Shown: piece after piece, positions 2,562 to 13,944 of the stretch
Layout: each line of letters begins with the position of its first letter
Position numbering within the stretch: the first letter of the stretch is position 1
Assembly (NCBI GenBank): GCA_035529395.1
Contig: DATKWT010000045.1
Span: forward strand, 1-46,051
Source: Dehalococcoidales bacterium
GTDB lineage: Bacteria; Chloroflexota; Dehalococcoidia; Dehalococcoidales; Fen-1064
DNA: 46,051 bases
Direction of reading: 5' to 3'
Notes under the pieces: generated by a model
Databases searched by the model: none
What the model was told of the DNA's origin: nothing
What the model saw: only the letters and a program-made list of their open reading frames with translations
Made by a program: the position numbers and the translations under genes

Positions 2562-3428
2562 CTAGCGCAATATGTACCCGCCGTCAACATTCAGGGCCTG
2601 GCCGGTGACGTTTCGGGCGTCATCGGAAGCAAAGAAGACTACCGCCCGGCCCATATCTTCGGGGGTCTGCTCTCTGCCGAGAGGGGCATTGGGCTCAACA
2701 AGGCGTGTCCGCCAGAACTCCTCGGGCGTCAACTCCTCAATCTCCGCACCAGCAAAACGCTCCGGAAGCTCTTCTCCGGACTCTTTTGCCTGCTTGATTT
2801 GGTTGTACATAGCGGTTGCCCCTCTCTCCCATAGCGGGGTGTAGACCCACCCCGGGCAGACACAGTTGACATTGATGTTGTTCGGGGCCAGCTCACGGGA
2901 CAACGACCACGTGAAGGAAATCACACCTGCCTTGAACACCGAATAGGGCATATTGCCGAAGTCGCCCAGTCGACCGGAGATGGACGAGATGTTGACTATC
3001 TTACCGCTCTGCTGCGCTGTCATGTGGGGAACAACAGCCCGGCACATGATAATCGTCGGCTTGAGGTTGATTTCGTAGGAACCCAGCCACTCTTCGTCGG
3101 TGCGGTTCGTTATGCGAGCCGGCTCAGTCCGGGATTCCGGTACTCCTCTCATACCACCGACGTTGTTGACCAGGATATCAATCCTGCCAAAGCAGTCCAT
3201 TACGGCAGCTACCGCTCCTTCCACATCATCACTGGCGGTAAGGTCAGCGACTACAGGAAGTGACCGGCGTCCCATCTTCTTGACCTCATCGGCTGCGCTC
3301 CGGGCGTGTTCACCATCAATATCAATCACGGTAACATCCGCGCCTTCTTCAGCGAGGCAACGGACTATGCCCCTGCCAATCCCCTGCGCTCCACCGGTAA
3401 CTACCGCCACTTTTCCTTCGAGTTTCAA
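2562..3428 (-). CDS. SDR family NAD(P)-dependent oxidoreductase
   Basis: This 288-residue classical short-chain dehydrogenase has the cofactor motif TGGAQGIG (11-18), NNVGG, and the active-site pair Tyr162 and Lys166 (YSVFK) preceded by Ser in NISSISG. It interconverts an alcohol and a carbonyl group with NAD(P). The start is a TTG at 3426-3428 with AAGGAGGG placed correctly upstream. Only 35 bp upstream is a displaced 3' tail of a haloalkane dehalogenase gene (3464-3553), so this SDR was probably once the third gene of the dehalogenase operon. A role in oxidising the alcohol released by dehalogenation is inferred, not shown. Confidence 0.93.
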   Translation of the reverse strand: MKLEGKVAVVTGGAQGIGRGIVRCLAEEGADVTVIDIDGEHARSAADEVKKMGRRSLPVVADLTASDDVEGAVAAVMDCFGRIDILVNNVGGMRGVPESRTEPARITNRTDEEWLGSYEINLKPTIIMCRAVVPHMTAQQSGKIVNISSISGRLGDFGNMPYSVFKAGVISFTWSLSRELAPNNINVNCVCPGWVYTPLWERGATAMYNQIKQAKESGEELPERFAGAEIEELTPEEFWRTRLVEPNAPLGREQTPEDMGRAVVFFASDDARNVTGQALNVDGGYILR

Positions 3429-3455
3429 TCGACCCTCCTTTGTAGAACTTATTTT

Positions 3456-4790
3456 CTACCTAACTATGGTAGCGGTGTCTCCAGAATCCACCTGCGGATG
3501 TTCTCGGCGACTTCCTCTCCGGCGTCCTCCTGGATGAAGTGACCTGCGTTCCTCACTCCTCAGCTTCTCCCTCATCGCTTTCACGAGACTCTCGCGGCCG
3601 TCCCGCGTAATCCTCCGGGCAGGACCTTTTGTGCACTCTTCCCTTACAGCGCATCCCTTACAGAACTTGCCTCGGTATACAATGAACGGTGGCTTGCCTT
3701 TCCGTTTCATCTCTTGATATCGCTTTAAGTCCTGACCCTCAGGACAGATATAGACATCCCTCATCTGGTCGTACTGAAAGTTGCTTTTGTGATACCTTTT
3801 CTCAGACTCGCCTTTCTTCTCCAGCACTACAAAGAAGTCATCAGGCATGTAGGCATCTAGCCCCCTCTGCTGAGTATATTCCAGATTCTCATAAGATGAG
3901 TATCCAGCATCAGCGCTTGCCTCTTGGGGCAGAGTCCCCAGATTTTGTTCCACCGCTTCTACCATCTTTATTAACTCGTGGTGGTCAGTCGTTTCCTGGG
4001 TGATGTCGGCAGCTACGATTACTTGCTCCTTTTCGTCCACTGCAATCTGTCCATTGTAGCTGGGCTGGATTGCCCTGCGGCTGTCCTGCATCAGCCGAGA
4101 TTCCCGATCGGTTATATTGACGCGCTTAAGCTTTCCCCTTTCAAGCGTTTCCCTTGCCTCGTTGAGCCTCTTCAACCGGTATTCCTTTTCTCGGAGTTCC
4201 TTTACCATCTCCGAGCCATCCCCATCAGGATGCGCCTGTTCTTCGCTCTCATCTATCCGGATCGAGGCTTCGATCATCCGTCTCACTTGCTCCTTGATGC
4301 ACTTAATCTCCTTCTCAAGACTGTCCCTGTCGCGGCTTTGCCTCAACGCAGCATTGGCTTTAAGTTTTGTGCCATCGAAGGCTATATGCCCGAGTCCCAC
4401 CATGCCCACGGAGGCGCAGAGCCTAACCACCTCCACGAATAGATCCGGAAGAATACCAGCATGCTGGGAACGGAAAAGGCAGATGGTTCTGAAGTCAGGT
4501 GTTTGTAGCCCCGATAGAAACATGAAAGCAGTATCAGTTTTCAGTTCTTGAGCAACTCTGCGAGAGCTATATATTCCTAGGCTATAGGCATAGATGATCA
4601 CTTTTAGCATCATCGCTGGATGATAGGCTGGTGCCCCGCCACCTTCATACTGACCAAGTAAAAGCGACGAATCAAGGGTATCCACCACATCACTGATAAT
4701 ACGCACTTCGTGATCCTCAGGTACAAATTCATCCAGCGATGGGGGAAGTAGAAAATTCTGATCTTGTCTGTATTCCTTAAATATCTTCAT
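3456..4790 (-). CDS. IS1182-family transposase, C-terminally truncated and fused to foreign sequence
   Basis: The first ~410 residues are an IS1182-type DDE transposase. They show the N-terminal helical region (FLLPPSLDEFVPEDHEVRII), a conserved IAFDGTKLKANA segment with the first acidic catalytic residue, DAGYSS with the second, and a C-terminal Cys cluster (CPEGQDLK, CKGCAVREECTKGPA). The normal ending after MREKLRSEE is missing. From about 3553 the frame reads out of frame through a fragment of a dehalogenase gene and ends at 3456. The third catalytic Glu of the family normally lies near this C-terminus and seems lost, so the protein is probably inactive. The start ATG follows a TATAAT-like box (4827-4832, minus strand). 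Confidence 0.88.
   Translation of the reverse strand: MKIFKEYRQDQNFLLPPSLDEFVPEDHEVRIISDVVDTLDSSLLLGQYEGGGAPAYHPAMMLKVIIYAYSLGIYSSRRVAQELKTDTAFMFLSGLQTPDFRTICLFRSQHAGILPDLFVEVVRLCASVGMVGLGHIAFDGTKLKANAALRQSRDRDSLEKEIKCIKEQVRRMIEASIRIDESEEQAHPDGDGSEMVKELREKEYRLKRLNEARETLERGKLKRVNITDRESRLMQDSRRAIQPSYNGQIAVDEKEQVIVAADITQETTDHHELIKMVEAVEQNLGTLPQEASADAGYSSYENLEYTQQRGLDAYMPDDFFVVLEKKGESEKRYHKSNFQYDQMRDVYICPEGQDLKRYQEMKRKGKPPFIVYRGKFCKGCAVREECTKGPARRITRDGRESLVKAMREKLRSEERRSLHPGGRRRGSRREHPQVDSGDTATIVR
3464..3553 (-). repeat. 90-bp direct repeat, copy 1 (displaced dehalogenase 3' tail)
   Basis: This is identical at every base to 11580-11669. It encodes the last 29 residues and the stop codon of a haloalkane dehalogenase, including the catalytic His segment, but no dehalogenase body precedes it. 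Identity ends at the junction with the truncated transposase (3553/3554). On the other side it ends one base past the stop codon. Confidence 0.95.
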
Positions 4791-4883
4791 CTCGTGGCCT
4801 CCAACGGAAAGACCTTCTTGTGGAATATTATACCCTACTTTGCCACGTGGGTGTGATCGTAGGGGGACTTTTTAGACAGCCTG
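3554..4883 (-). mobile_element. Remnant IS1182-type insertion sequence, one end lost
   Basis: The transposase gene is preceded by an IS-end-like sequence at 4862-4883 (minus strand AGGCTGTCTAAAAAGTCCCC), about 75 bp upstream of the start, a usual distance in this family. The opposite end should follow the transposase stop but is replaced at 3553/3554 by the dehalogenase tail. No second inverted repeat and no target duplication can be found here. The end assignment rests on recalled family resemblance. Confidence 0.6.
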
Positions 4884-5160
4884 ATATAGTATGTTGTTAC
4901 CTCGATATGGCATATAAAGGTTCCTGGCTTGCCCCCATAGAGGGTGCTACTTCTTAGATCTCGGTTACAGTCAATATCCGTGTTTCATTCACGGCAAGGA
5001 GGGACTATAATAGGGCTGCCAGGGAGCAGAGTAAAGAGCTTTGACTGTCGATTAACTCAAAGGCTACAATTGTTCCACTTTTGCTGACCACATACATACG
5101 GGGGTAGGTCAGCGTGAAAGCCGTCACATAAACTGAAATGGAGGAAAAAAGGACGTCAAC
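4791..5160. other. Intergenic region between IS transposase and SDR
   Basis: This 370-bp stretch holds the transposase leader and putative IS end (4862-4883), then about 150 bp of apparently non-coding sequence, then a strong promoter and leader for the SDR gene at 5161. I see no ORF with protein-family features and no RNA gene. Confidence 0.6.
5041..5070 (+). promoter_or_regulatory. Promoter of the SDR gene at 5161
   Basis: TTGACT (5041-5046) and TACAAT (5065-5070) are separated by 18 nt. Each box matches the sigma-70-type consensus at 5 of 6 positions. The transcript would have a leader of about 85 nt ending in GGAGG before the ATG. Confidence 0.6.
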
Positions 5161-5991
5161 ATGAGTGAGAAGCATTTAGAAGACAAAGTCGCCTGGGTGA
5201 CCGGTTCCTCGCGGGGCATTGGTCGGGTGATTGCCGATCATCTGGCGGCCTTGGGGGCGAAAGTAGCGGTTCACGGCACGAGTCCCACCTCAACCCGTGC
5301 CTTTAATGAGGCTGAATCGCTGGACGCGGTGGCCGAGGCCATTACCGCAGCCCATGGGAGCGTAGTGCTGCCAGTCTGGGGCGATCTGACCGATGCGGCC
5401 ACGGTTAAGCAGGTCGCCGAGCAAATTCGCCAGAAGTTCGGCCAGATCGATATTCTGGTGAACTGTGCCGGAGGTGACATCGGTTCGCAGGGTGTTATGG
5501 GAGAGAATGCCGGTAAACCGCTGTCCAACGATGCCGTGTTTATTGCCCTGGAAGATGTGCGGACAGTGCTGGACCGGAACATAATGACCTGTATTTTGTG
5601 TTGTCGTGAGGTGGCGCCGGAAATGATCGCCCGCAAAGCAGGCTGGATCGTCAATATCGGCAGCGTTGGTGGGCTGTCGGGCCACGCTGGAGAGGCGATC
5701 TACTCAACGGCTAAAGCGGCCGTCCACGAGTATACACGCTGCCTGGCGGCCCAGTTGCGGCCCGATAACGTATACGCCAACGCAGTTGCGCCCGGGCCGA
5801 TTATTACACCCCGCTTTGAAGCCAGCCGGCCCATTAATGAGTCCATGAAATTGACCGACGGTACGCTCGAGCGGTACGGCTGGCCGATTGAAATTGCTCG
5901 GGCGGTTGAGTTTTTTGTTACCCAGGATTCGTCATACATAACCGGGCAGGTGCTGCGGGTGGATGGCGGGATTCAATTGTGGCCGGCTTAA
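5161..5991 (+). CDS. SDR family oxidoreductase
   Basis: This 276-residue short-chain dehydrogenase has TGSSRGIG (14-21), NCAGGD, and the catalytic Tyr181 and Lys185 (YSTAK) preceded by NIGSVGG. The C-terminal ITGQVLRVDGG is the usual SDR ending. It reduces or oxidises an unknown carbonyl or alcohol with NAD(P). GGAGG lies upstream of the ATG. It is the only plus-strand gene between 2549 and 15041, has its own promoter, and its codon choice looks different by eye from the neighbours, so it may have been acquired with the surrounding segment. Confidence 0.92.
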   Translation: MSEKHLEDKVAWVTGSSRGIGRVIADHLAALGAKVAVHGTSPTSTRAFNEAESLDAVAEAITAAHGSVVLPVWGDLTDAATVKQVAEQIRQKFGQIDILVNCAGGDIGSQGVMGENAGKPLSNDAVFIALEDVRTVLDRNIMTCILCCREVAPEMIARKAGWIVNIGSVGGLSGHAGEAIYSTAKAAVHEYTRCLAAQLRPDNVYANAVAPGPIITPRFEASRPINESMKLTDGTLERYGWPIEIARAVEFFVTQDSSYITGQVLRVDGGIQLWPA

Positions 5992-6012
5992 AAGCCGGCG
6001 AGTGTCTTTGTT
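5982..6012 (+). terminator. Hairpin terminator overlapping the SDR stop codon
   Basis: GCCGGCTT (5982-5989) and AAGCCGGC (5992-5999) form an 8-bp perfect stem with a 2-base spacer, followed by a T-rich stretch (GTGTCTTTGTTTT). The stem includes the end of the SDR gene, which fits a Rho-independent terminator. Confidence 0.55.
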
Positions 6013-6234
6013 TTGGGAAATTGAAGCCCGGTGCTCTACCTAAGCCGAACTCCTAACTGCAGTTGCCTACAAAACGCATAGGGTCACAATCAGCCAGATT
6101 GTTAGATCACGACCCCCTGTGCGTGCGGAATGTAGCTGCGACATTTGAGGGAGGAAGTGCTGTTGAGGTAGTAACTAAGCAATCTCCACCAAATAAGGGC
6201 TAGCAAACCATTGAAGAGCTGCTAGCCTTCCCCT

Positions 6235-7467
6235 TTAATCTACTATCGCAGGGTAAATCAAAGACTTCAATTGACCCCGGAAATTAAAGGTATTTGACGG
6301 CATTAGCTGCGTTAAGAATATTACGATGAGGTCCTGGGCCGGGTCTATCCAGAATATAGTACTGGCGGCTCCTCCCCAGTAATACTCACCAAGCGAACCT
6401 ACCTGCTGGGATTTAACCAAGTCAATGATGACAGCGAAACCAAGTCCGAAGCCGACACCTTCATTAGCCGTCTCACTGAATGCGCTTATACTGAGGTCAG
6501 TAAGGTCTTGATTTCCCGGCAGATGATTAATCGTCATATATTCAATTGTTCTTGGACCCAGAAGACGAGCGCCGTCAAGTTCTCCCCTATTTAAGAGCAT
6601 CTGGCAGAACCGGTAATAATCGGCCGCAGTTGAAACAAGCCCACCACCACCGGAAAAACAGGCAGGAGGCGTCAGATATGCACTCTTAGCAGGGTCATCC
6701 ATTAGCTGCAATCTCTTCTTATCATCACGATTATAATTAGCGGCGAAACGGTCTACCTTTTCTGGAGGTACATGGAAACTGGTATCTACCATTCCTAATG
6801 GCTCGAAGATATACTCCTTCAGGTATTCGTCAAAACTCATTCCGGATATCACTTCCACCAAGCGACCGCATACATCAGTCGAAATCCCGTAATTCCACCT
6901 CGTACCCGGTGAAAACTCAAGGGGTAATTTAGCTACTTCTTGAACCATTTCCTTAAGTGTTCCCTTACGTCGGTCCATTACATTTAACTTCTGATAAGCT
7001 GCACCTACCGGCGTACCTAACTCCGCGGGTGCACCATACGTAAGACCTGAAGTATGTGTAAGAAGGTCTCGAATAGTCATGTCCCGCTCTGACGGTTTCG
7101 TCACGAAGTTTGGGTATTCTCCGGAAACATAAACCTCCAGGTTTCTCCACTCAGGTATGTATTTGTAGACTTGGTCCCCGAGCTGGAAGTGACTGTGCTC
7201 ATAAAGCATCATCAAGGCAACCGTAGTAATCGGCTTGGTCATCGAATAAATACGAAAGATAGTGTCCTCAGCCACAGGTTTTGCCCGTTCGATATCCATC
7301 ATGCCTGTGGGAGATAAATAGGCTACCTTACCATGGCGGGCAACCAGGGTAAGAGTACCGGCGATTTTCTTAGGTATCAGATACCGGTTCAGTAGGTGGT
7401 TTTCTATCCGGACTAGGCGTTCACCTGCGAGGCCGACTTCTTCTGGATTTGCTACTTTAATAGTCAC
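6235..7467 (-). CDS. Serine hydrolase, class C beta-lactamase family
   Basis: This 410-residue protein has the SxxK motif SMTK (Ser75, Lys78), the Tyr motif RWNYGIS (Tyr193) and a WGG triad-like segment (YYWGGAAS) in place of KTG. That set is characteristic of the EstB and 6-aminohexanoate-dimer hydrolase group rather than true beta-lactamases. Likely activity is hydrolysis of esters or amides. No signal peptide is visible, so it is probably cytoplasmic. The start is a GTG at 7465-7467 with AAGGAG 8 nt upstream. The gene looks more A+T rich than its neighbours, which may point to a different origin. The substrate is unknown. Confidence 0.9.
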   Translation of the reverse strand: MTIKVANPEEVGLAGERLVRIENHLLNRYLIPKKIAGTLTLVARHGKVAYLSPTGMMDIERAKPVAEDTIFRIYSMTKPITTVALMMLYEHSHFQLGDQVYKYIPEWRNLEVYVSGEYPNFVTKPSERDMTIRDLLTHTSGLTYGAPAELGTPVGAAYQKLNVMDRRKGTLKEMVQEVAKLPLEFSPGTRWNYGISTDVCGRLVEVISGMSFDEYLKEYIFEPLGMVDTSFHVPPEKVDRFAANYNRDDKKRLQLMDDPAKSAYLTPPACFSGGGGLVSTAADYYRFCQMLLNRGELDGARLLGPRTIEYMTINHLPGNQDLTDLSISAFSETANEGVGFGLGFAVIIDLVKSQQVGSLGEYYWGGAASTIFWIDPAQDLIVIFLTQLMPSNTFNFRGQLKSLIYPAIVD

Positions 7468-7469
7468 GA

Positions 7470-7571
7470 TTAATTCTCCTTATGTTTCAGTGCCCTCTGC
7501 AGCGAAGGCTGCATCTTCATCTCGCGGAACTCGTTGATGGCGAAGCCCAGGTGCTCAACGACCTCCATCCT
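7470..7571 (-). pseudogene. Possible C-terminal remnant of a TPR/AAA regulator-type protein
   Basis: In the 87-bp gap between the HAD and serine hydrolase genes, and slightly into the HAD gene, the minus strand reads MEVVEHLGFAINEFREMKMQ and on to a TAA at 7470-7472. This resembles, from memory, the C-terminal end of large Chloroflexota AAA/TPR proteins (FREMKMQPSL-type ending). No body of such a protein precedes it. It may be a relic left by a deletion; the AAGGAG ribosome site of the next gene lies inside it. Confidence 0.3.
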
Positions 7572-8256
7572 CTTTTATTACAGTCAGAATGTCTGTCAAT
7601 GAGGAGATAGTGAGGCCATCCCACTGTTCGCGGTTCATCAGATGCGACTCGGTGCTGTCTGCATCAGGGCGGGTCAGGACAGGCTTCATACCGACGCCTA
7701 GTGCTCCACTTAACTCCTGACTACCACCATCACCAACAAACAGGCATTCCTCTGGTCGGACCTCAAGTCGTTCGGCTGTGAGTTTGTATATCCGTGGGTC
7801 AGGCTTCCTCATTCCCACTAAGCATGAGAATACTGCCACATCAACCAGGGGAGCGAAAGGCGTTTCTGGCCAGACAGTCGGAATCTCGTGAGTGCAATTG
7901 CTGAGGAGGCCAATCTCATACCCTTCTTCCTTCAGGCGCAAGAGCACTTCTATGGCGCCCGGCTGCGGCGTCATAACGTCACGTATATGGTCCAGCCTAT
8001 GTTGTACTGCGAGTTGCACCTGCTTATCTCTGGGAAGTACACCCAGTTCACGACAGACTTGTTTAACATCGGCCTCGCAGTTCTGATTTACACCTGTGTT
8101 CCGCTTTCTTGAAGTGGTGAACCACTCCCGCCTGAAGTCATCGGAAGGTAGTGATAGTGCAGAAGCCATCTTAACCAGTGCTTCGTTGTAATCTTGAGAC
8201 GAGAAGTTGCCTGCCAGCGTCCCAAATAGGTCGAATATTACAGCTAGATACCCCAT
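7555..8256 (-). CDS. HAD superfamily (subfamily IA) hydrolase
   Basis: This 233-residue protein has all four HAD motifs: motif I FDLFGTL (nucleophile Asp9), motif II LLSNCT, motif III Lys in RKPDPRIY, and motif IV FVGDGGSQELSGA. Residue 11 is Phe instead of the second Asp normal in HAD phosphatases; haloacid dehalogenases carry Tyr there. The RKPDPRIY segment also resembles haloacid dehalogenases, but motif IV looks phosphatase-like. It could be a phosphatase or a 2-haloacid dehalogenase; the sequence alone does not decide. No clear ribosome site is visible upstream. It lies 63 bp downstream of the aldo/keto reductase gene on the same strand. Confidence 0.88.
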   Translation of the reverse strand: MGYLAVIFDLFGTLAGNFSSQDYNEALVKMASALSLPSDDFRREWFTTSRKRNTGVNQNCEADVKQVCRELGVLPRDKQVQLAVQHRLDHIRDVMTPQPGAIEVLLRLKEEGYEIGLLSNCTHEIPTVWPETPFAPLVDVAVFSCLVGMRKPDPRIYKLTAERLEVRPEECLFVGDGGSQELSGALGVGMKPVLTRPDADSTESHLMNREQWDGLTISSLTDILTVIKEDGGR

Positions 8257-8319
8257 CGTTTCGAGTTACGCTCTCAGAATCTCCTTGTATCTCGGTTCAC
8301 CGGTACAGCCTATGGGTAG

Positions 8320-9486
8320 CTACTTACCGAATAGCTCCGCGGCTCGCCTCATGTTGGCGACGACGTCCACACCGAATGGGCAGCGGTCTGTGCAGATACC
8401 ACACTCGGTGCACGCTGAGGCGTGAACGGCGAGGGATTCATACTGGGTGATGGTGTTGCCGTCCATGCTGTAGCTAGCAGTATCTGTGATTCGCGTCGTC
8501 ACGGCGATGTCTATGGCCTCTGGACAAGGTAGGCAGTGGTTGCAGTACATGCAGGCCCCATGCAGCTTCCACATGGCGTTAGTATCGATAGCGCTGTAGT
8601 CCTTCTGCTCGTCGGTGGCATCCAGATAGGCAAGTGCCGCCCTCATCTCGTCGACATTCTTGCAGCCGGGCACGATGGTGGTGACGCCTGGTTGTGACAG
8701 AGCATAGCTGGCGCATTGTACCGGAGTCAGGACGATGGAACTGGGATTCTCGGGATTGAACAGCCGACCAGCGGCGTAGGGCTTCATGGCCACTACGGCA
8801 ACACCCGCGGCGGCACATGTATGGTACAGCTCCTGGCGCGTCGGTGACGTAGTCTCTTGCACCGCTTCGGCTTTCTGAAACGTCCCAGGCTCCCACACAG
8901 TTTCGAATCTCATATCACCGGGCAGGATGTCCGTCGCTGGATTCACCGGGAACATCAGTACGTCAATGTGTCCGCCCCTCACTGCCTTAAGGGCAACAGG
9001 TACGGAGTGGCCGCTCATTCCGAGTAGTCGTGCCTTGCCTTCCTTCCGGAGTCGCTGGGCTACTCCCAGCAGACCCTCCGGCTCAAACACCTTGTTATAA
9101 TCACCCTGCTCATCAACGCAGTGCAGCATAAGCACATCGACGTAGTCCGTCTGGAGCCGTACCAGAAGGTCCTCGAAGGACTTCTCGCACAACGCTTTCT
9201 CCCTATGGGGAGTGTACTGGTTATTCTCCAGTACAGCCCCTAGATGACCGGCAACCATCACTTCCTGGCGCCTGCCCTGGAGGGCAATACCGAGATTCTT
9301 TCTTACCGCTGGAGCAGGCAAAGGTATATCTATGTAATTAAGGCCCTTGTCCAGCGCTTCGTCTACCACGGAGACAACAGTGTCTAGCGAGGCCGGTCTT
9401 CCCAGACTGAAGTCCCATAGATACTCGGCGCCCAGTCCTATGACACCGACATCCAGACCGCTTCTTCCCAATTTACGATACTGCAT
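8320..9486 (-). CDS. Aldo/keto reductase with C-terminal 4Fe-4S ferredoxin domain
   Basis: This 388-residue fusion has an AKR barrel (about 1-280) followed by a ferredoxin-like region with Cys clusters CMYCNHCLPCP and CTECGICTDRCP, enough for two 4Fe-4S clusters. In the barrel Asp53 (NYIDIP) and His122 (LMLHCVD) are conserved. The catalytic Tyr expected about five residues after Asp53 is absent (PLPAPA), and the Lys expected in an ATK motif is His81 (AGHLG). It may therefore not use the classic AKR mechanism. GAGG lies upstream of the ATG. Its upstream region carries a 12-bp repeat array (9723-9778). Confidence 0.9.
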   Translation of the reverse strand: MQYRKLGRSGLDVGVIGLGAEYLWDFSLGRPASLDTVVSVVDEALDKGLNYIDIPLPAPAVRKNLGIALQGRRQEVMVAGHLGAVLENNQYTPHREKALCEKSFEDLLVRLQTDYVDVLMLHCVDEQGDYNKVFEPEGLLGVAQRLRKEGKARLLGMSGHSVPVALKAVRGGHIDVLMFPVNPATDILPGDMRFETVWEPGTFQKAEAVQETTSPTRQELYHTCAAAGVAVVAMKPYAAGRLFNPENPSSIVLTPVQCASYALSQPGVTTIVPGCKNVDEMRAALAYLDATDEQKDYSAIDTNAMWKLHGACMYCNHCLPCPEAIDIAVTTRITDTASYSMDGNTITQYESLAVHASACTECGICTDRCPFGVDVVANMRRAAELFGK

Positions 9487-10085
9487 ACGCCAACGACCCT
9501 CCTCTGTTGCCGTGAACGTTCCCCTACTGAGCCGGTGCCCACAGTCTATGACTGGGAGGTGAGGATGTCAAGCAATGCAGCTTGCCAGATGCGGGCATGA
9601 GTACCCTCTCACCTGCCCGTGCAGCTACTACGACGGCTTTTGGCAATATTATGTACTTGTTGCGGTTAACAAAACATCGGATTGGTCAACCGAAGACACA
9701 AAACCTAGGATTGTTACCTATGGTTTACCATATGGTTTACGATGACGTTTACCATACCGTTTACCTGTATGGTTTACCTCCGTTATTGCAGCTGATATTT
9801 TTCTCTAATCGAGGCTAATACAGGAGGGGGGGACCCGCCTGAGGGTACACGTGAAAAATGAAGGAACTCTGTTGCAGACGCCACACGGAAAAACGTGAAA
9901 GAGAAGGTCTCTTGATTGGATAGGCTATCAGCGAACAGAGTAGAACCGGTTACCCGTGGCTGCCAGCGCGGAGTGCCGCCAGGCTGACGGTCACACACAT
10001 AGTCTTATTGCTGGATGAGGCCGACTCACCGGATACGGAAACAGGTATACGGTACGGTTGATTACCGCAGGTGGGATAGATCCCC
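9487..10085. other. 600-bp non-coding region between AKR and MCM-like ATPase genes
   Basis: No convincing gene is present. The region holds the upstream sequence of the aldo/keto reductase gene, the GTTTAC repeat array at 9723-9778, and about 300 bp before the 3' end of the ATPase gene where I see nothing recognisable. Confidence 0.6.
9723..9778 (+). repeat. Five-fold GTTTACC array, 12-bp period
   Basis: GTTTAC(C) occurs at 9723, 9735, 9747, 9759 and 9772, so starts are spaced 12, 12, 12 and 13 bp. Flanking bases are partly conserved (ATGGTTTACC). About one helical turn separates the units, which fits a multimeric DNA-binding site such as an operator or iterons. It lies about 240 bp upstream of the aldo/keto reductase start. 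Confidence 0.8.
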
Positions 10086-10997
10086 TCAGCTCAGGAGCAG
10101 CCGGATCGTTTTGTCGATGCCCAGTTGTGGGCTCAAGCGGGCAACCCTTACCGCGTCTCTCACGTCCTGGCAACGACCGCCAAGCTTCCTGGCTATCTCT
10201 TCCGCAAGCTCTGGAGTGCTACCTTCACGATGTACCAATACGCCCTCGACGACCGAATGGAACTGTGCCGCGTCATAAGGTCTTAGCGTCCGCATGGCAA
10301 ACCTGGACATCAGTTCCGGAGATAGCCTGGCCACTCGGTTGGTTGCTGCCACGACTCTAATGGCAATGGTGGCATCGAGTGCCCTGCCTTTCTTGGCCCG
10401 CACCAGTCTACCACCCTCCATCAAGCTGAGTAATGCCGCGGTATCGACGGCGCTCATCTTGTCCAGTTCGTCGATGAGCAGAATCTGCGGCTCCCGTTCC
10501 GCTACCACGTCCCACAGTCCCGCCTTGCTGGTTGCCGACCCAACAAGCCATAGAGCCTGCTTGCCACACACTCGCTCTATGTCCCACAGGAATAGGGACT
10601 TTGCGAGTGCCGGTGGCCCTGCCAGCAGCACATGCACTGGCTTGTCCGCAAGGAGTGCAGCCGTCAGGAGTTCCTTGACATCTTCATGGCCAATGATGTC
10701 TTCGAAGATGTCGCTGGGGAGTGTCACGGTTTCATCTCGATGTTTCTCACAGGCTTCTGATGCCTCCGTCAGCAGTGTTGCCTGCTGCCGGCCCAGGTCG
10801 GTTAGCAGCAATCCCCGATGGCTGTTTGAGTGGAACTTCTCCTCAAGCAGTCCCTTCAGCAATAGGCTATTCAGAGTAGGTGGGGCAACACGGACATCAC
10901 TCCAACGCCATCCCAGGCTGAAGTCCTCCGGATCATGGGTCTGCTCGTATTCAAGTGTCTTGAGTAAGGCATCCGTCTGCTTCTGATTTAGGTTCAT
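10086..10997 (-). CDS. AAA+ ATPase with MCM-like core and N-terminal winged helix
   Basis: This 303-residue protein has an N-terminal winged-helix-like part (about 1-75) and a AAA+ core. Walker A is GPPALAKS (127-134), where Ala replaces the usual Gly before Lys, as in MCM helicases (GDPxxAKS). Walker B is LLIDELDKM (173-181), close to the MCM signature IDEFDKM. A SATSKAGL segment mirrors the MCM SSAAGLT stretch. Sensor 1 is ATN (218-220) and SRF carries the likely arginine finger. It is much shorter than MCM proteins and lacks their N-terminal OB and Zn domains. MoxR-type ATPases are the alternative. A GTG at 11006 is possible, but GGAGG is spaced 8 nt from the ATG at 10997. The gene stands alone. 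Confidence 0.8.
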   Translation of the reverse strand: MNLNQKQTDALLKTLEYEQTHDPEDFSLGWRWSDVRVAPPTLNSLLLKGLLEEKFHSNSHRGLLLTDLGRQQATLLTEASEACEKHRDETVTLPSDIFEDIIGHEDVKELLTAALLADKPVHVLLAGPPALAKSLFLWDIERVCGKQALWLVGSATSKAGLWDVVAEREPQILLIDELDKMSAVDTAALLSLMEGGRLVRAKKGRALDATIAIRVVAATNRVARLSPELMSRFAMRTLRPYDAAQFHSVVEGVLVHREGSTPELAEEIARKLGGRCQDVRDAVRVARLSPQLGIDKTIRLLLS

Positions 10998-11270
10998 TCT
11001 ACTCACCTCCCAGTGATAATAACAACGGCAGGGTGTAACTCCTTTGTCCCCTCTCCCTTCGGTTCTCTACCCCGTTCCGCCGACATTTTGCTGACAAACT
11101 GCTCAGTATCAGGCAGTATATGATGGTATGTCCAGGTACGATACATCACCGCGGTAACAACAGAAAAGGACCAGATACTACCTGGAGGGGCGGTGTGGGA
11201 CATCGGGCTTCTTATGTTGGCTAAGACGTAGTCTACCAGACGACCGGATATCCGGTCCTCCCAGGCAGTC

Positions 11271-11341
11271 TATCACCAACTTGACTGCCAATTGTGCACT
11301 TCCACAAGGGGAAGGGGAAGAGATTATATCTGGGGGACACC
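11271..11341 (+). repeat. Dispersed intergenic repeat, copy A
   Basis: The segment 11321-11341 (AGATTATATCTGGGGGACAC plus C) is identical to 35578-35598. The segment 11271-11309, ending in ACTTCCACAAGG, matches the reverse complement of the 35689-35727 region at 32 of 39 positions. Two shared blocks in different relative orientation mark this as a mobile or rearranging intergenic repeat. Confidence 0.75.
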
Positions 11342-11342
11342 G

Positions 11343-11448
11343 GCAGAATCTGGTTTCGGATTCTGCTAACGTCATTCTGTAAGAATGACGCCCAGACACC
11401 CCCGCCATAGGGGGCTCAGGCCCTTTCCAAGGGGTAGGCCCACTATGG
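11343..11448 (+). repeat. Three consecutive inverted repeats
   Basis: GCAGAATC (11343-11350) pairs with GATTCTGC (11359-11366). GTCATTCT (11371-11378) pairs with AGAATGAC (11382-11389). CCATAG (11405-11410) pairs with CTATGG (11443-11448), enclosing GGGCTCAGGCCC. All stems are perfect. Three hairpins in about 105 bp suggest a structured RNA, a transposition-related end, or a compound terminator. Confidence 0.6.
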
Positions 11449-11539
11449 ACTTCCCTTTTTCAGAACCCTGTCAGAGTAGTAGCTCCATTTGAAAGCAGGG
11501 TAAAAATGCAGGGCAAACGAAGTTTGTATTAAGTTAATG

Positions 11540-11559
11540 CCCCACAGCAAGCTGTGGGG
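11540..11559 (-). terminator. Perfect 9-bp hairpin after the dehalogenase gene
   Basis: CCCCACAGC and GCTGTGGGG are separated by AA, 20 bp past the dehalogenase stop. On the minus strand the tail (CATTAACTTAAT) is only weakly T-rich; on the plus strand the tail is TAGTTTATTAT. It is a probable terminator. A REP-type palindrome is an alternative. Confidence 0.5.
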
Positions 11560-11579
11560 TAGTTTATTATATTCTCTAG

Positions 11580-11669
11580 CTATGGTAGCGGTGTCTCCAG
11601 AATCCACCTGCGGATGTTCTCGGCGACTTCCTCTCCGGCGTCCTCCTGGATGAAGTGACCTGCGTTCCT
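11580..11669 (-). repeat. 90-bp direct repeat, copy 2 (native dehalogenase 3' end)
   Basis: This is identical to 3464-3553. It covers residues 409-437 and the stop codon of the dehalogenase, including catalytic His413 (NAGHFIQED). In place it is an ordinary gene end, so this copy is the functional one. Confidence 0.95.
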
Positions 11670-12893
11670 GATGGGCAGCGGGGGAGCGCAGTTGCGGAAT
11701 ATATTGCGGAACATACCCTCTCCTGCCCTGGTTATGGCGTCTCCCTCTGCCCAGGGTAGAAGTACCGGTAGCTCAAGCGTCTTCAGCACCTCGATGGCAA
11801 CATGGTTGTCATAGGCACCGGGATGGTCCGGGCGTATCGGTACCTGACGGGGCCAGAGGAGGGCCGCTGTCTGATACTCCACCGAAGGGAAGGGCGCCCC
11901 GTAGGCGGCTGCTTCGGCTTCGGTCAGTTCGCGGTTGCCGACCGCCTGCTTCATCATTGCCGGCAGGTCGAACTCTGCCAGCCGTTGTGAAAGCCTTCGC
12001 CACGTCATAAAGGCTCCTCCCATTCCGCCGGTCTCCGCAGCAGACGACCCACCAGGTCTACCCCCATCGGGGATACCGGTGTTCATCGGGACAATCCGGG
12101 CAAAACGTTCGGGCAACTGAGAGACAACCCGCAGGCCAACCAGACCTCCCCAGTCCTGGCAGACCAGCGTGATTCGCTTGAGGTCCAGTTCCAGGATGAG
12201 CTTCCGCATCCAGCGCACGTATGCCCTGTAGCTGTATGCGTTATCCGCAACCGGCTTATCGGACCGTCCAAACCCTATCTGGTCGGGCACTATGACACGG
12301 CCTACCCCGGATAGAACCGGTATCATGTGTCGGTACAAATACCCCCAGGTCGGCTCACCGTGAAGCATCAGTATCGGGTCGCCGGAGCCTTCCTCCACGT
12401 AGGCCATGCGCAGACCTTCAATCTCCACATAGCGCGGCTCGTAGGGGTAGTCCGGCAGATTGGCAAAGCGTTCCTCCGGCGTACGCATCACTGAGCCGTC
12501 AGGCCAGGACAACTGCACCCGGTCGGTCTGCTGCTGAGCGAACCCGGCCACCAGCCTGATATCGGCGGGGTCCATGCCCTCGGTGACTTCCGCCACCCAC
12601 GTCCCGAAGTCAAGCAGGTCACTATCAATCTCGTGCTCCGGGGGACGCGGCTCGTAGCGGTCCCAGAAACCGAAGACGGTGGCTGTCGAGGGCCGACCCC
12701 TACCGAGGTCCCCCAGTTCCAGGGCGTAGAGGTGGTCATGCTCCGAACGCCAGTAGACCCTGCCCGCGCGGATACCGGTCGCTCTCTCCAGTGCTTGGGC
12801 GACTTCCGGGCGGATATCAAGCTCCTGCTCTACCAGCAACGGGTCGGCACGGAGATAGGATAGCTGTTCAGCGGATGGTGTAATGAACTTCAT
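11580..12893 (-). CDS. Haloalkane dehalogenase-like alpha/beta hydrolase with extra N-terminal domain
   Basis: Residues 136-437 resemble subfamily I haloalkane dehalogenases (DhlA type). They show RTPEERFANLPDYPY, the oxyanion motif HGEPTW, nucleophile Asp247 followed by Trp (CQDWGG), and catalytic His413 (NAGHFIQED). Such enzymes release halide from haloalkanes to give alcohols. Residues 1-135 are an additional region that DhlA (about 310 residues) lacks and that I do not recognise. Met136 could be an internal start, but the gene opens at an ATG that overlaps the upstream gene stop (ATGA, 12890-12893) with GGGGAGG before it. Halide specificity and activity are inferred. Confidence 0.88.
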   Translation of the reverse strand: MKFITPSAEQLSYLRADPLLVEQELDIRPEVAQALERATGIRAGRVYWRSEHDHLYALELGDLGRGRPSTATVFGFWDRYEPRPPEHEIDSDLLDFGTWVAEVTEGMDPADIRLVAGFAQQQTDRVQLSWPDGSVMRTPEERFANLPDYPYEPRYVEIEGLRMAYVEEGSGDPILMLHGEPTWGYLYRHMIPVLSGVGRVIVPDQIGFGRSDKPVADNAYSYRAYVRWMRKLILELDLKRITLVCQDWGGLVGLRVVSQLPERFARIVPMNTGIPDGGRPGGSSAAETGGMGGAFMTWRRLSQRLAEFDLPAMMKQAVGNRELTEAEAAAYGAPFPSVEYQTAALLWPRQVPIRPDHPGAYDNHVAIEVLKTLELPVLLPWAEGDAITRAGEGMFRNIFRNCAPPLPIRNAGHFIQEDAGEEVAENIRRWILETPLP

Positions 12894-13819
12894 AATGACC
12901 TCCCCACCGTCCTGTCAAGGAACTCGACTATGCTTCGGGCGATATCCGGGCCGCGGTCATCCTGAAGGAAGTGCGCCGCATTTTCAAATGTTATCGGGCC
13001 TTCGGCATGTGGCAGTAATTCCTTCAGTCGGTTAGCGTACTCTATTGGAAAGACATTGTCCTCCGGCGCCCAGATAAGGAGGGTCGGAATCCGAGCCAAC
13101 TCCGGCAACCGTCGCTCGATGGTGAGCATGTCCTCCCAGCCACGGTCGCCTTCACGCATCGGGATGGTGCGCGGCCATGTCAACACCACGTGGTCCGAAT
13201 CCGCCTCATCGTAGATGTGGTGATAGGCACGGGCTTCCGGCTCACTCATGCCCCGCCGGGAGACAAGTGATGGCCCGGCGTGGGACAGAATCTTGTGCCG
13301 TTTCATAAAGAACTGACCTATCAGCGGTGCGTGCCACGTTGTCCAGGGACGCGACGAAGAATGGAAGCGGCCGACATTACCGGTAAACAACCAGGTATTC
13401 ATCAGCACCATTGCATCGAGTCGTTCCTGGCGCTGCAAGGCGGCACCAACTCCCTGTGGGCCTCCCCAGTCCTGCCCCACGACGACGAATCCCCGCAGTC
13501 GTAGCTGGTCCATGAGAGATACCAGGTCGGCAATGTGGTGGGGCGTCGTGAGAGCGCTGTCTACCCGCGGTTTGTCAGAGTAGCCCGCCCCAATCCAATC
13601 CGGCACGATAACCCGGTACCCGGCCTCGGTCAGCGGCGGAATGAAATAGCGGTATAGGAAGCCCCAGGTGGGATTTCCATGGAGGAGCAGGACCGGTCGG
13701 GCTCCGGGGTCACCCTCGTCGATGTAAGCCATAGTCCGCCCGTTCACGGTAGCCGCATGCTGCTCCCAGGGAAAGATTGCCTTGAGCCAGTCAGGTCTTT
13801 CAAGCAGTTTTCGGGTCAT
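12890..13819 (-). CDS. Haloalkane dehalogenase-like alpha/beta hydrolase
   Basis: This 309-residue protein has the length of canonical haloalkane dehalogenases. It has HGNPTW (oxyanion and halide-binding region), nucleophile Asp117 followed by Trp (GQDWGG), and catalytic His283 (NAAHFLQDD). The likely reaction is hydrolytic removal of halide to an alcohol; a non-dehalogenating epoxide or ester hydrolase is possible. It is the first gene of the minus-strand operon, with AAGGAGG upstream of the ATG, and overlaps the next dehalogenase gene by 4 bp. The two paralogues differ enough to suggest different substrates. Confidence 0.88.
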   Translation of the reverse strand: MTRKLLERPDWLKAIFPWEQHAATVNGRTMAYIDEGDPGARPVLLLHGNPTWGFLYRYFIPPLTEAGYRVIVPDWIGAGYSDKPRVDSALTTPHHIADLVSLMDQLRLRGFVVVGQDWGGPQGVGAALQRQERLDAMVLMNTWLFTGNVGRFHSSSRPWTTWHAPLIGQFFMKRHKILSHAGPSLVSRRGMSEPEARAYHHIYDEADSDHVVLTWPRTIPMREGDRGWEDMLTIERRLPELARIPTLLIWAPEDNVFPIEYANRLKELLPHAEGPITFENAAHFLQDDRGPDIARSIVEFLDRTVGRSL

Positions 13820-13944
13820 ACGAACATCACCTCCTTTCGATGAGAGAAACAGAATAGTGTTTCAGGTTAACCGTAAGCGCAATTATAGCAGGCTGCTACG
13901 ATAGCCGACAAGCAGAGTCACACAACCCCGATGTCCCGGCCTCG

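Follow-up and report, generated by a model that had tools for sequence, protein, structure and literature searches.

A short AAA+ ATPase with MCM-like and RuvB-like features, free-standing beside an origin-like iteron array in a Dehalococcoidales genome

What is a short AAA+ ATPase with motifs resembling those of MCM proteins, and why does it stand alone in a bacterial genome? The question is raised by a gene in a 46,051-nucleotide contig of a Dehalococcoidales bacterium (DATKWT010000045.1; this whole stretch of DNA is the window referred to below), for which the original prediction proposed an MCM-like protein left behind by a former element. Otherwise, MCM-like genes of bacteria have been described in phages and in integrative plasmids (PMC5862659). 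The open reading frame is real: it occupies positions 10086-10997 of the minus strand, with an ATG at 10997 and a stop codon at 10086-10088, and encodes 303 amino acids, and a GTG a few codons upstream offers an alternative start that would give 306. On the basis of the reading frame, profile searches, homologue alignment and a structural model, we describe the product as a member of a short MCM/RuvB-like AAA+ family.

All AAA+ motifs are intact in the window protein, and the three strings that first drew attention to it are present on the minus strand. These are the Walker A sequence GPPALAKS (10596-10619), whose residues G127, P129, A132 and K133 are invariant in 25 homologues; the segment SATSKAGL (10515-10538), which hhalign places opposite the K-x-x-S/T-x-A-G-L/I motif of MCM; and the Walker B sequence LLIDELDKM (10455-10481), in which D176 and E177 are invariant in the same 25 homologues and the string DELDKM is identical to that of archaeal MCMs. 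Downstream on the same strand, the model forms a pre-sensor-1 beta-hairpin from strands 197-202 and 205-210 (10362-10415) with an invariant Lys202, and the alignment of 25 homologues reveals an invariant arginine finger, R232 of an SRF sequence (10302-10304), an invariant sensor-2 arginine, R280 (10158-10160), and an equally invariant R287. The N-terminal winged helix that had been proposed is also borne out, as residues 1-84 (10746-10997, minus strand) are modelled by AlphaFold2 as a MarR-like domain. When predicted alone, these residues reach a pLDDT of 84 and match MarR-family folds at Z ~10, the best-quoted match being MexR (3ech_B; Z 10.4, 80 residues, rmsd 2.0).

Profile searches favour MCM over the other AAA+ families named in the original prediction. 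The best Pfam match is MCM (PF00493, 4.3e-10; 39.5 bits with a cut-off of 23.3), followed by AAA (4e-8) and RuvB_N (2.5e-6), and this MCM P-loop domain is matched by 21 of the 25 homologues. The profiles bpMoxR (17.7 bits) and Sigma54_activat (16.6 bits) both fall below their cut-offs, and a MoxR or sigma-54 activator identity was therefore rejected. All RuvB and MCM matches in NCBIfam are sub-threshold, including the RuvB equivalog NF000868, for which the window protein scores 37.7 bits against a cut-off of 282; with its separate position in the tree, this led us to reject a RuvB paralogue. Another gene of the host is itself RuvB-like and appeared as a weak third match in the homologue search. 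In hhalign comparisons, the ATPase family scores 164 (E 3e-21) against archaeal and viral MCMs and 109 (4e-15) against RuvB, while RuvB and MCM score 56 against each other; the MCM and RuvB scores are not fully balanced because the RuvB alignment is shallow. In an hmmsearch of the PDB, MCM (1.2e-17) is narrowly ahead of RuvB (5.5e-15).

Structural comparison divides the resemblance between the two families. The AlphaFold2 model (pLDDT 86.7) has a core that fits Mcm4 best (7v3u; Z 18.6, 146 residues, rmsd 1.9), and RuvB (1j7k) fits both core and lid through the C-terminus (Z 16.3, 199 residues, rmsd 3.4); Foldseek alone ranks RuvB first. The RuvB alignment reaches residue 303 and the top MCM alignments stop near 240-265, and these extents suggest that the lid of the modelled protein is canonical. 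MCM, by comparison, has a lid-disrupting insertion before sensor 2 (PMC5039278). The spacing between Walker A and Walker B is 46 residues in the free-standing and Dehalococcoidales-element members and 43-49 in more distant relatives, compared with 48 in RuvB and 57-62 in seven MCMs, and on this basis we conclude that the helix-2 insert is missing; in the model, helix 161-168 leads straight into strand 172-176. AAA+ proteins that have the pre-sensor-1 hairpin and lack this insert fall in the clade that holds RuvB (PMC5039278). In our tree, long branches separate the family from MCM as well as from RuvB.

Considered together, the motifs, spacing, lid and tree indicate that the protein is MCM-like in its ATP site and RuvB-like in its frame and belongs to neither group. 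As read from sequence and model, it is a separate AAA+ family in which a RuvB-type frame carries an MCM-like ATP site and is joined to a MarR-like winged helix, and we found no paper naming such a family in the literature searched. The MCM identity originally proposed thus stands for the ATP site and the best Pfam match, and fails for the insert, the RuvB-like lid and the separate branch; likewise, of the two structural elements by which it was to be recognized, the hairpin is in the model and the helix-2 insert is absent. Archaeal, viral and eukaryotic (MCM2-7) MCMs share with it the AKS, SxAGL, DELDKM and SRF motifs, the hairpin lysine, the best profile matches and the core fold. Unlike them, the window protein shows no sign of a pre-sensor-2 insertion, has 303 residues rather than about 560-800, and carries its winged helix at the N-terminus rather than the C-terminus. 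Only this winged helix, of about 84-90 residues, precedes the AAA+ core, and the OB-fold/zinc N-terminal tier of MCM is absent. A bona fide MCM was rejected for want of the insert and this tier. RuvB shares the spacing, the hairpin and the lid alignment, whereas its ATP-site motifs differ from the MCM-like ones found here and its DNA-binding winged helix lies at the other end; no such C-terminal domain was found in the window protein, which ends after the lid. Orc1/Cdc6 iteron initiators also combine AAA+ and winged-helix domains beside short direct repeats, but their domain order is the reverse, and iteron reading by the window protein is putative.

Relatives of the gene point to where it came from. 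A homologue is present in 26 of 156 Dehalococcoidales genomes, none was detected at 1e-25 in a sample of Chloroflexota genomes outside this order, and more distant homologues were recovered from archaeal MAGs and from viral contigs; in the latter they lie near genes for a PD-(D/E)XK nuclease and an AAA_24 ATPase. Certain viral contigs (L172, L173 and L176) encode true MCMs, with short TATACAC or TACATAC arrays roughly 0.3-1.4 kb upstream. In complete Dehalococcoidales genomes, the AAA gene resides within elements of 25-30 kb near tRNA genes. Their genes encode, in this order, a large serine recombinase and an ImmA-like peptidase (both named from sequence rather than by profile), regulators and a Gp3-like recombination directionality factor (RDF; 1.5e-50), followed by a DUF3854 primase-helicase, a small ORF, a DnaJ-domain protein, the AAA gene, an HTH protein, and small membrane and hypothetical proteins. 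One such element (G057; L081 with L131, about 612-642 kb) also carries genes that, judged by sequence, encode a subtilase-like protein, small membrane proteins, a heavy-metal P-type ATPase and a DnaN-like protein; a scan of a few of its late genes against PHROGs returned no capsid match. The window ATPase derives from the replication module of a mobile element, as the original prediction had suspected: its homologues sit in such modules, and the remainder of the element is absent from the window genome. There, the sole trace is a decayed RDF fragment (G000:C110), and the DUF3854 primase-helicase is missing from this genome and from two others with free-standing copies (G001 and G007).

The intact elements resemble the SaPI Rep and SCC Cch and Cch2 systems in combining a serine recombinase, a DUF3854 primase-helicase (which in one element also has DUF927) and iterons at the helicase 3' end (PMC7581432). 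They differ in adding the short AAA+ gene, which is not mentioned for SaPI/SCC in the passages of that source consulted, and the window locus differs further in keeping only the AAA gene and an iteron array; the initiator helicase with iterons occurs in the intact elements of relatives and not in the window genome. In the SaPI/SCC modules, the C-terminal domain of the Rep helicase reads iterons located just downstream of rep (PMC7581432). The intact elements have their own clusters of 4-6 iterons close to the AAA gene, in most cases at the 3' end of the helicase gene and in one genome (G097) directly behind the AAA gene; their units include GACAGTA, GGCTACA, AGTGTCC, GGTTACA, ACCGTCCG, ACCTTTC and AACCGTC. 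Among the element copies of G085, changes in the helicase C-terminus coincide with changes in the iterons (96 of 98 residues are identical, then 39 of 89), and the AAA winged helices are nearly identical across elements with different iterons. Because the helicase C-terminus covaries with the iterons while the winged helix stays the same, judging from these sequences the helicase rather than the AAA protein is probably the iteron reader in intact elements, where the AAA protein would have an accessory role. Near-identical winged helices accompanying different iterons weaken the case for this domain as a specific iteron reader. In these copies (L075, L076 and L077), the helicase C-terminal domain and iterons appear to have been swapped as a cassette.

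Five GTTTAC(C) iterons with a period of 12-13 bp are arrayed about 0.3 kb behind the window gene (9721-9779, plus strand), in an origin-like organization. A pattern search of the 156 genomes recovered such arrays only here and at G007:C99 and G007:C16, two loci of another genome; in every case an AAA homologue is no more than about 1.2 kb away. The reversed control pattern gave no match in the same genomes; a rough estimate puts the chance of three such placements at about 1e-9. A fourth array lies about 1.4 kb from the AAA gene of another MAG (L037). A G-rich segment (9820-9840, plus strand), recognized by alignment of the four loci and by folding, follows the array in all four and forms part of a predicted hairpin in two of the three loci other than the window (L074 and L037). 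Where the array lies relative to the gene, and in which orientation, differs among free-standing loci, and at G007:C16 the same GTTTACC array accompanies an AAA protein of only 35% identity. At this last locus (L086, 964-3272), the gene and array are situated between housekeeping genes, and an N-terminally shortened FtsZ-like protein (FtsZ_C, 2.4e-9) is also encoded. The reading that we prefer, and to which we give an even chance, is that the ATPase is the AAA+ motor from the replication module of an integrative element and now stands alone, kept with its origin-like array as a replication or maintenance unit.

Besides the window copy, free-standing AAA loci occur at G000:C124, G001:C5, G001:C18, G007:C67, G007:C99 and G007:C34, and in the tree they group together (100/99) as a clade next to the element copies. 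Those in other genomes are 74-90% identical to the window protein, and dN/dS between full-length copies is 0.06-0.19, which argues that the gene, intact by its sequence, has been under purifying selection. This result bears on whether the gene is an undegraded leftover of a decayed element, now functionless, with the iterons an inert remnant of its origin. Decay is evident nearby, as the G000:C124 copy is truncated (90% identity over 94 residues, then unrelated DNA), the G007:C34 copy is internally deleted and the RDF fragment is itself degraded, but the low dN/dS values, and the conservation of the array between loci although synonymous sites mostly differ and are near saturation, make such a relic unlikely. 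Purifying selection, together with the gene's own leader of about 310 bp and the loss of the other element genes, would also fit adoption by the host for DNA remodelling or defence, with the array as an operator or binding platform. We consider this very improbable given that the gene is patchily distributed and missing from most genomes of the same family, has no conserved host neighbour and gives no convincing PADLOC match. An anti-phage system was rejected as a separate candidate, its PADLOC matches being weak only (DolB, 4e-4).

The boundaries of the free-standing copies raise the matter of mobility. The leader (11007-11320, minus strand) is 91-94% identical to that of G001:C5, G001:C18 and G000:C124, and all of these matches end abruptly at 11318-11321. 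Here lies a conserved 59-bp end sequence (11261-11319) with a CCTTCC-N6-GGAAG palindrome, found in all genus-level free-standing copies, similar in G007:C99, and present once without the AAA gene (G002:C10). The palindrome resembles a genomic stem-loop repeat of about 40 or more copies. G000, G001 and G002 contain dozens of copies of a stem-loop repeat, with hairpins of the form CCCCTTCC-TGGCCA-GGAAGGGG, and window positions 11310-11500 are part of this family. Two further copies, G007:C67 (L073) and G007:C34 (L087), start within sequences that, read by eye, look like tRNA-Ser(CGA) and tRNA-Thr(CGT) 5' halves interrupted at the anticodon loop. Neither ARAGORN nor a T-arm search detected tRNA 3' halves at the free-standing sites, and Rfam returned no family in the window. 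The right end of the unit is undefined because contigs break there, those of G001 ending inside the AAA gene or about 60 bp behind it.

The common boundary at unrelated loci, the palindromes and the apparent tRNA halves suggest, at the level of sequence, that these copies have been mobile. The gene and its cis array might then constitute a satellite that inserts at stem-loops and is moved or replicated by enzymes of a helper element. The insertions beside palindromes like the high-copy repeat, and inside two apparent anticodon loops, are what such a satellite would produce, but the unit contains no recombinase or transposase, its right end is undefined, no tRNA 3' half follows and its left end occurs once without the gene, and we judge this explanation to be unlikely as well. 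A more specific formulation, in which an MCM/RuvB-intermediate AAA+ gene and a five-iteron origin constitute a two-part mobile replicon of 1.2-1.6 kb that has no recombinase of its own and enters stem-loops and tRNA anticodon loops, strikes us as quite improbable.

On a larger scale, the gene lies in an 8-kb segment (3554-11566) bounded by a direct repeat of ~105 bp, 96% identical between its copies at 3449-3553 and 11567-11669. The repeat-bounded setting described in the original prediction is confirmed by a congeneric locus (G001:C51), which joins window positions 2563-3553 to 11564-13934 with a single repeat copy and without the 8-kb segment. G002 has positions 11438-11564 in common with the window. 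The repeat corresponds to the 3' end of a haloalkane-dehalogenase-like gene, and a transposase-like ORF (3456-4790) that runs into the left copy appears truncated. Within the segment, positions 9523-9615 form a dispersed repeat, also present in G002 and twice in G001:C75, that includes, in opposite orientation, 17 nt almost identical to the ribosome-binding region of the ATPase gene.

According to the preferred reading of a retained replication or maintenance unit, the ATPase would assemble as a hexamer, be recruited to origin DNA through its winged helix or through partner proteins, and draw DNA through the ring with the lysines of its pre-sensor-1 hairpins. In an intact element, it might help a SaPI/SCC-type initiator helicase to open or remodel the iteron origin; at the free-standing loci, it may still work on the array that was kept with it, the two forming a minimal unit for replication or maintenance.

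The AAA gene and iteron array constitute a protein-DNA pair that is directly testable as a replication module, and intact AAA-iteron versions are present in complete Dehalococcoidales genomes. The family is also small enough for biochemical testing. MCM is usually placed among the helix-2-insert AAA+ proteins. A compact family that combines the MCM ATP-site signature with a RuvB-type frame could help to explain the origin of helix-2-insert helicases.
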